From Flavobacterium swingsii (lineage in GTDB: Bacteria; Bacteroidota; Bacteroidia; Flavobacteriales; Flavobacteriaceae): DNA of 64,000 bases. Below are positions 2,601-36,911 of this stretch, piece after piece; the stretch's first letter is position 1; every line of letters starts with the position of its first letter. The position numbers and the translations under genes are program-made. The notes below the pieces were generated by a model that was not told where the DNA came from, did not search any database, and saw only the letters and a program-made list of their open reading frames with translations. Location of the stretch: the NCBI RefSeq assembly GCF_900111965.1, contig NZ_FOJT01000001.1, positions 1 through 64,000 on the forward strand, in the 5' to 3' direction.

Positions 2601-2616
2601 CTAAAAATTAAGAGCC

Positions 2617-3171
2617 ATAGCAATTAGAAACAGTAGAGGTTACCAGCCTCGAGTAGAAAAAAAAGACGAACACAGAATAAACAACTTTATTCGTGTTCCA
2701 GAAGTACGTCTTGTAGGAGAAAATGTTGAGCCAGGAGTTATAAAAACTTCTGAAGCAATGAAACTTGCCGATCAATTAGAATTGGATTTAGTTGAAATTT
2801 CTCCAAACGCAGAACCGCCTGTGTGTAAGATTATGGACTATAAAAAGTTCGTTTACATGCAGAAGAAACGTGAAAAAGAGCTAAAAGCTAAATCTACTCA
2901 AATTGTAGTTAAAGAAATTCGTTTTGGCCCTCAAACAGATGAGCATGATTACGAATTTAAAAGAAAAAATGCCGAAAAGTTCCTTAAAGAAGGTTCTAAA
3001 CTAAAAGCATTTGTATTCTTTAAAGGTCGTTCTATTATCTATAAAGATCAAGGGCAAATCTTATTATTAAGACTAGCAACAGATCTTGAAGAGCACGGTA
3101 AAGTAGAAGCTATGCCAGTTCTAGAAGGAAAAAGAATGATTATGTTTATTGCTCCGAAAAAGAAAAAATAA
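2617..3171 (+). CDS. infC: Translation initiation factor IF-3, with an apparent AUA start
   Basis: IF-3 binds the 30S subunit, prevents premature 50S joining and rejects non-canonical start codons. Conserved sequence ([47 protein letters not shown]) begins well upstream of the first in-frame ATG at 2758. The frame opens after a TAA at 2602-2604 and contains no ATG, GTG or TTG before the conserved N-terminus. ATA at 2617 is the best start and gives 184 residues, the normal IF-3 length. A rare start codon fits the known IF-3 autocontrol in E. coli, where infC starts with AUU. The choice of 2617 over the in-frame ATT at 2623 is inference. It lies 16 nt after thrS, consistent with one transcript. 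Confidence 0.9.
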
Positions 3172-3250: not shown

Positions 3251-3448
3251 ATGCCTAAAATGAAAACCAAATCTAGTGCCAAGAAACGATTTAAAGTTAC
3301 TGGTTCTGGAAAGATTAAAAGAAAACACGCTTTTAAAAGTCATATTTTGACTAAAAAATCTAAAAAACGTAAATTAGCTTTGACACACTCAGCGTTAGTT
3401 CACAAAACAGATATGAAAAGCATCAAACAACAATTAAGAATTATCTAA
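3251..3448 (+). CDS. rpmI: 50S ribosomal protein L35
   Basis: Small basic ribosomal protein of 65 residues, starting [18 protein letters not shown], with the lysine-rich composition and HSALVHK region of the family. It follows infC and precedes rplT, the usual bacterial order. Its length is standard and the ATG at 3251 is the only sensible start. Confidence 0.97.
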
Positions 3449-3581
3449 TCGACAATTTCCAATTGTCAATTAACCAAAAATAATTCTTTAGGTTAAAATT
3501 ATTTAAAAATAACCTTGGAGTGGGCCATTAAGTACCTTCGATTTAATTCAGGTCGCCTTACTACAAAAAAACATTAAAATT
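3449..3581 (+). promoter_or_regulatory. Leader between rpmI and rplT, possibly structured
   Basis: This 133-nt gap is long for an operon of this kind. It contains a possible hairpin AGGTTA...TAACCT (about 3490-3515) and a GC-richer block around 3515-3565 unlike the surrounding AT-rich spacer. L20 represses its own operon by binding mRNA in E. coli and in Bacillus, so an autoregulatory site here is plausible. No known L20-leader fold was verified. Confidence 0.35.
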
Positions 3582-3926
3582 ATGCCAAGATCAGTAAATT
3601 CAGTTGCTAAAAGAGCAAGAAGAAAAAAGATAATGAAGCAAGCCAAAGGTTTCTTTGGTCGTCGTAAAAACGTTTGGACAGTTGCAAAAAATGCGGTGGA
3701 GAAAGCAATGTGCTACGCTTACCGTGATAGAAAAGTAAATAAGAGAAATTTCCGTGCATTATGGATTCAACGTATCAACGCTGGAGCAAGATTGGAAGGA
3801 ATGTCTTATTCACAATTCATGGGGAAAATGAAAAAGCATGATATCGAATTGAACCGTAAAGTTCTTGCAGATTTAGCTATGAATCACCCAGTAGCTTTCA
3901 AAGCAATACTTAACAAAGTAAAATAA
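3582..3926 (+). CDS. rplT: 50S ribosomal protein L20
   Basis: 114-residue basic protein starting [16 protein letters not shown], with conserved [12 protein letters not shown] and [19 protein letters not shown] segments. It binds 23S rRNA early in 50S assembly and in several bacteria represses its own operon. Last gene of the thrS-infC-rpmI-rplT cluster, followed by an intrinsic terminator. Confidence 0.97.
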
Positions 3927-4018: not shown

Positions 4019-4106
4019 GGCGTTACCACAAGGGTCGGGCTTTCCGTTGCAATCTTTTTTTCGGAGAAAAACCTCAAAAAAGGATTTCCACTACAATCCC
4101 TAACGC
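4019..4106 (-). repeat. Interspersed modular repeat, copy 2
   Basis: Minus-strand copy of the same element as 466-568. Reading the minus strand, GCGTTAGGGATTGTAGTGG is followed by a core with T6 and A7 arms around GAGGTTTTTCTCC, then TTGCAACGGAAAGCCCGACC and GGTAACGCC. It is close to identical to copy 4 (36767-36856) over most of its length. Confidence 0.8.
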
Positions 4107-4172
4107 AAAATCGATCTAAAAATCCAACCGCATTTTTAACATAACTTTCAGAAAATTACTATATCGTTTTCC

Positions 4173-15502: not shown

Positions 15503-15572
15503 TAGTTGACCAACTTATTATTAGGAGCAAGAAACTGTTCGCTTTTTAGGAAACATTCTCCCGCTTTCGCCT

Positions 15573-15642
15573 ATATCTTTTTGTTTTATGCTTCGACAAT
15601 CCCGATAGCTATCGGGACAGCATGACAAAACAAAAAGGATAT
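15573..15642. repeat. Imperfect inverted repeat with an inner palindrome
   Basis: Outer arms start ATATCTTTTTGTTTT and end AAAACAAAAAGGATAT. The inner stem CCCGATAGCTATCGGG is a perfect 16-bp palindrome. No gene lies between 15412 and 15830; this and the next hairpin fill most of that gap. Confidence 0.75.
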
Positions 15643-15697
15643 TTGGCTCTATCGGGGCTATACAGCTTGTTAGTTTTTCTTAAGTAACGAAAAATCG

Positions 15698-17849: not shown

Positions 17850-17890
17850 TTTTTTAAAATGTTTAATAGAAGCCGAAAAGTTTGTATTTA

Positions 17891-17950
17891 GCCCCGATAG
17901 TAGTGAAAATCCCACGTTTTTTTTGCGTGGATTGTAACGGATAGCGGGAA
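17891..17950 (+). repeat. Interspersed modular repeat, copy 3 (short)
   Basis: GCCCCGATAGTAGTGAAAATC and GGATTGTAACGGATAGCGGG match the left and right modules of copies 1, 2 and 4; the centre is a copy-specific stem CCACG/CGTGG with a T8 loop. The terminal GGTAACGCC module is missing. It lies between porQ and cmk. Confidence 0.7.
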
Positions 17951-17993
17951 TATTGTTTCCTAAAACACCTTTTGTTTCTGCTTCAAAAAAAAA

Positions 17994-36766: not shown

Positions 36767-36856
36767 GGCGTTACCACAAGGGTCGGGCTTTCCGTTGCAA
36801 TCTTTTTTATCGGCGAAAAGCCTCAAAAAAAGGATTTCCACTTCAATCCCTAACGC
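36767..36856 (-). repeat. Interspersed modular repeat, copy 4
   Basis: Minus-strand element: GCGTTAGGGATTGAAGTGG, core with GAGGCTTTTCGCC between T and A runs, TTGCAACGGAAAGCCCGACC, and TTGTGGTAACGCC. It differs from copy 2 mainly in the core loop. It sits between the beta-oxidation terminator and sodC. Confidence 0.8.
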
Positions 36857-36911
36857 AAATGCTATTTGCTAAGAATTTAGCCGTAATTTTATAACATAAA
36901 TAAAAAATCCT

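Follow-up and report, generated by a model that had tools for sequence, protein, structure and literature searches.

Introduction

In Escherichia coli the gene for initiation factor IF-3, infC, reportedly starts at AUU and is under autocontrol by IF-3, as is said of the work of Butler and others in 1986 and 1987. In that organism IF-3 disfavours near-cognate initiation and so limits its own synthesis. The E. coli sequence included here as a control shows ATT as the infC start, as an earlier note on the DNA described below had stated, with GGAGG placed 8 bases ahead. infC is also said to be listed by Gvozdjak and Samanta among the genes that prefer non-AUG starts, in a list that may cover Bacteroidota.

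Three further systems are close to the locus described here. In Staphylococcus aureus, one report shows initiation of infC at AUA by Ribo-Ret, reads it as likely autoregulation and predicts that the AUA is directed by an extended Shine-Dalgarno sequence (PMC13009471). AUA as the start of infC is therefore already known as such; the infC of Flavobacteriaceae shares this codon but has no such sequence. The rpsU gene (bS21) of Flavobacterium johnsoniae is likewise a translation-machinery gene with an odd initiation region in a Shine-Dalgarno-poor group, but it uses an extended Shine-Dalgarno sequence and senses bS21 (PMC9976891). Eukaryotic eIF1 resembles IF-3 in being a start-fidelity factor with a poor-looking start site of its own; its start is an AUG in poor context, and the likeness is an analogy only (PMC3434475). 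Searches of a literature collection with few subscription papers brought up no work on how infC starts in Bacteroidota, and infC goes unmentioned in the accessible main text of PMC6847099, PMC9976891, PMC8710568 and PMC10783764. In the papers searched we met neither the near-fixity of AUA in a Shine-Dalgarno-poor family nor the G-Y-C context that precedes it.

The infC locus

The window, which is the whole stretch of 64,000 nucleotides analysed, comes from Flavobacterium swingsii (contig NZ_FOJT01000001.1, positions 1 to 64,000). Its relevant features are the following.

651 to 2600, + strand: thrS, upstream of infC, with its start at ATG 651 or 654 (TIGR00418, E 1e-206)
2603 to 2606, + strand: A-motif of infC, -14 to -11 (family conservation; motif from PMC6847099)
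2614 to 2616, + strand: GCC at positions -3 to -1 of infC, matching the conserved G-Y-C context (family conservation)
2617 to 2619, + strand: putative AUA start codon of infC (ATA conserved in family and genus loci)
2617 to 3171, + strand: infC coding sequence as read from AUA, 184 codons and stop (TIGR00168, PF05198, PF00707 and relatives)
3251 to 3448, + strand: rpmI (L35), downstream; open reading frame named by sequence and place in the operon, without family search
3582 to 3926, + strand: rplT (L20), downstream; open reading frame named in the same way

The product of infC is IF-3 by family searches (TIGR00168, E 4.8e-58; PF05198 and PF00707 also match), and the nearest IF-3 locus among the matches listed, from which the genome's own record was possibly excluded, is that of F. 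humi, with 95% identity over IF-3. The gene sits between thrS, also assigned by family search, and rpmI-rplT, assigned by sequence and place. The locus shares with E. coli the order thrS-infC-rpmI-rplT and a near-cognate start codon; it differs in having AUA instead of AUU and, in Flavobacteriaceae, an A-motif without a Shine-Dalgarno core, and feedback by IF-3 is here a proposal.

Reading of the open frames places the thrS stop at 2598-2600, in a frame different from that of infC. Upstream, the infC frame meets a TAA at 2602-2604, and from 2605 it stays open as far as its stop at 3169-3171. The first in-frame ATG, GTG or TTG is ATG 2758, located 47 codons past ATA 2617; the earlier note had described the frame in the same way, with the conserved N-terminus 40-50 codons ahead of the first ATG. 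Although ATG 2758 is the first canonical start codon of the frame, a start there, leaving the upstream stretch untranslated, is hardly credible. In the translation from 2605 the match to IF3_N sets in at residue 25 and ATG 2758 is residue 52, so that part of IF3_N would be lost, and among relatives the stretch before ATG 2758, which contains the beginning of that domain, conserves the protein sequence with synonymous changes. Gene callers restricted to ATG, GTG and TTG would trim 47 residues from IF-3, and surveys relying on such starts would miss the infC initiation region.

AUA as the start codon

The family set consisted of 80 genomes, one per genus, with 79 loci counted; the eightieth (G255, locus L162) also reads ATA. 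In all 79 the aligned place reads ATA-GCN and in none ATG, L176 being doubtful since in its sequence, ATA GCC ATC ATA, the ATC two codons on may be the start. The best 80 genus-level loci by IF-3 similarity, which are close relatives, gave ATA in 79, ATC in one (L068) and ATG in none, both counts sharing ancestry and not representing independent events. Orthologues with ATG at this position, which the earlier note had regarded as evidence against a rare start, were thus found in neither set, yet a single transition would convert ATA into ATG. Besides L176, 12 of the 79 family loci have an additional ATA or ATC in frame, one or two codons earlier; here the ATA at the conserved place is preferred because it is favoured by both alignment and context.

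The earlier note had left the choice between ATA 2617 and ATT 2623, and the relatives separate the two. ATT 2623 is in frame and is the codon used by E. coli infC. However, the corresponding codon 3 is variable in the 79 family loci (ATA 53, ATT 22, ATC 1, TTA 2, CTT 1), CAA, CAG or CTA are seen at this place in loci of f2, another family of the order, and the A-motif is six bases out of register with ATT 2623. Initiation at this codon is accordingly very improbable. Since the relatives keep ATA at the first codon while codon 3 varies and may even be Leu, the start falls most probably at ATA 2617. Which codon occupies the start place, and that it is conserved, is read directly from the sequences; that translation is initiated there we infer from them, and we hold it to be highly probable.

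A last possibility is the production of IF-3 by frameshift or readthrough from thrS, whose stop lies only 11-46 bases ahead of the ATA in the 79 family loci. Relative to infC, however, the thrS stop occupies each of the three frames (33, 26 and 20 of the 79), which makes this route extremely unlikely. Alignments of the relatives therefore disfavour the starts at ATT 2623 and ATG 2758 as well as the thrS frameshift.

The retention of ATA exceeds what is found elsewhere in the gene. Deeper in IF-3, six Ile columns that are conserved across the family show ATA in only 6-20 of 78-79 loci, against 79/79 at the start, and in the F. swingsii genome ATA accounts for 27% of Ile codons (135 open frames of at least 150 codons, about 180 kb). 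Codon 3 is intermediate, with ATA in 53 of its 76 Ile codons; part of the ATA bias is thus regional, since this codon is also ATA-rich. Codon 2 is GCA in 77/79 loci; at seven other places where Ala is conserved, GCA is used in 17-36 of 72-79.

The initiation region

According to Baez and others, A at -3, -6, -12 and -13 promotes initiation in F. johnsoniae, enrichment of A extends from -14 to -11, and AUG is under-represented near starts (PMC6847099). In infC of the 79 family loci A is found at -14, -13, -12 and -11 in 64, 78, 73 and 71 cases, in register with the ATA. No GGAG or GAGG occurs from -24 to -1 in any of the 79 family loci or of the best 80 genus loci by similarity. ATG is absent in any frame from -16 to +33 in all 79, whereas base shuffling gave a mean of 44 loci with ATG and a minimum of 33, in a stretch that also codes for conserved protein. 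Folding of positions -40 to +60 of the same loci left the start codon mostly unpaired (mean 0.80-0.82).

The three bases preceding the ATA are mostly G-Y-C, with G at -3 in 72 and C at -1 in 73 of the 79 loci. By comparison, 67 other start regions of the F. swingsii genome, chosen for their unambiguous ATG starts, have G at -3 in about 3 (4%), C at -1 in about 4 (6%) and G-Y-C in none. The downstream genes rpmI and rplT have A at -3 in 23/30 loci each; they were located by Met-first patterns, so that their ATG starts are given by construction and are not evidence. In the F. johnsoniae EF-Tu reporter the change of A to G at -3 lowered output by 70%, an effect that the authors suspect to be due partly to folding (PMC6847099). 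Because G-Y-C replaces the favoured A at -3 and this same change lowered the output of the reporter, the start context of infC looks unfavourable. Pairing of G-Y-C with the loop of the initiator tRNA was considered and set aside, the base at -1 being C and not U.

Start codons and Shine-Dalgarno cores in other lineages

At the order level, 98 genomes gave a match, and 87 infC loci were read. ATA is found in 14/14 loci of f2, in small samples of f77, f78, f82, f85 and f86, and in 3/4 loci of f87, while CTG is used in f76 and much of f79, and f80, f81 and f83 have mostly ATC. Taking order and family loci together, the start codon was resolved in 156 of 165, eleven of them by eye, as ATA in 117, ATC in 19, CTG in 15, ATG in 3 and ATT in 2. 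A tree built on the end of ThrS and IF-3 requires at least 11 changes of start codon, all kinds of change pooled, against a mean of 38 with shuffled labels. The 70 loci of the wider class, from 98 genomes with a match, have ATA, ATT, ATC, TTG and ATG as candidates, and the phylum set yielded 41 loci from 97 genomes with a match.

Many lineages of the phylum thus have near-cognate infC starts (AUA, AUC, AUU, CUG); the earlier note had considered a rare-start control parallel to that of E. coli likely in this phylum. Of the groups represented by more than five genomes, however, just Flavobacteriaceae and f2 have AUA near-fixed, and other lineages use AUC, CUG, UUG or AUG. A weak start is not indispensable, since ATG is found in 3 of the 156 order members and TTG or ATG in many members of the class; the three ATG-starting order members begin nearer to the conserved domain.

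Bacteroidia are described as a class in which Shine-Dalgarno sequences are seldom used. GGAGG is nevertheless present near the upstream stop in 17/70 infC loci of other Bacteroidia; mock windows gave 5/70, 0/69 and 4/70, and shuffling a mean of 1.0 and a maximum of 4. Each of the 17 has it 5-11 bases ahead of an AUA (11), AUU (4) or AUC (2) in frame; the codon taken was the first start-like one that follows GGAGG by at least 3 bases, which favours near spacing. The order set outside Flavobacteriaceae has GGAGG in 5/70 loci, the same as one mock window (5/70), and the phylum set in 1/41, without excess, so that the claim rests on the class set. The results suggest that infC in some of the other Bacteroidia retains a Shine-Dalgarno core. 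In a simple history, the near-cognate start would be old, and Flavobacteriaceae would have kept it while swapping the Shine-Dalgarno sequence for the A-motif.

The loci in which GGAGG precedes AUA by 5-11 bases, all from other Bacteroidia, are L126, L137, L268, L274, L285, L286, L287, L292, L295, L296 and L300. In genome G184 (contig 15, 15175-15674) the infC match falls into two overlapping pieces, as if frame-shifted.

A model for control by IF-3

IF-3 of E. coli discriminates against codons of the AUH kind. Taking the sequence comparisons as a whole, autorepression by IF-3 through a codon against which the factor discriminates, operating without a Shine-Dalgarno sequence, is the best explanation and a reasonably probable one. 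In the model, the ribosome would be placed on infC mRNA by the upstream A-motif and the scarcity of nearby AUGs, not by Shine-Dalgarno pairing. The initiator tRNA would pair poorly with AUA, making initiation presumably weak, and IF-3 on the 30S subunit would destabilise the AUA initiation complexes. When free IF-3 is high, infC mRNA would therefore be translated less, owing to both the poor pairing and the destabilisation. A parallel to the AUU autocontrol of E. coli is by analogy the best reading, and that IF-3 feeds back on its start in this way seems to us somewhat more probable than the contrary.

Alternatively, the AUA might act as a fixed brake that holds down IF-3 production in relation to the neighbouring operon genes, with no feedback. 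A weak codon and a poor -3 base would reduce initiation on their own, and the loss of EF-Tu reporter output in F. johnsoniae, perhaps partly a matter of folding, points in the same direction (PMC6847099). Nevertheless, the codon conserved in Flavobacteriaceae is of the AUH kind, and GTG and TTG are absent at this place in the family loci; we consider a fixed brake possible but rather unlikely. More speculative, and doubtful at present, is an extension of the feedback model in which the infC start is weak twice, by its near-cognate codon and by G-Y-C, and IF-3 may sense the context too. Control of infC would then resemble that of eIF1 over its own gene by way of a poor Kozak context, here in a bacterium with Kozak-like signals.

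If the feedback is true, autocontrol by IF-3 operates without Shine-Dalgarno pairing, and infC would be a compact natural mRNA for probing what IF-3 senses on such ribosomes.

Other elements of the region

Between rpmI and rplT, at 3491-3565 of the window, there is a conserved element composed of GGTTA..AACC, GGAG, a hairpin that varies and usually CGCCTnCTACA. Its pattern was matched in 91 of the 107 loci that reach the region (159 loci given). Rfam has no match near threshold for it, and it is absent among the leaders tabulated in the available part of PMC7247131. The last helix covaries, with at least 4 bp in 15 of 24 genus-level copies, versus a mean of 5.1 and a maximum of 10 in the swapped-arm control. 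The element is a candidate L20 leader. The window also holds four copies of Flavo-1 RNA at or above the Rfam threshold (4029-4111, 15553-15663, 17886-17955 and 36777-36867) and a weaker copy, below threshold, at 460-546.
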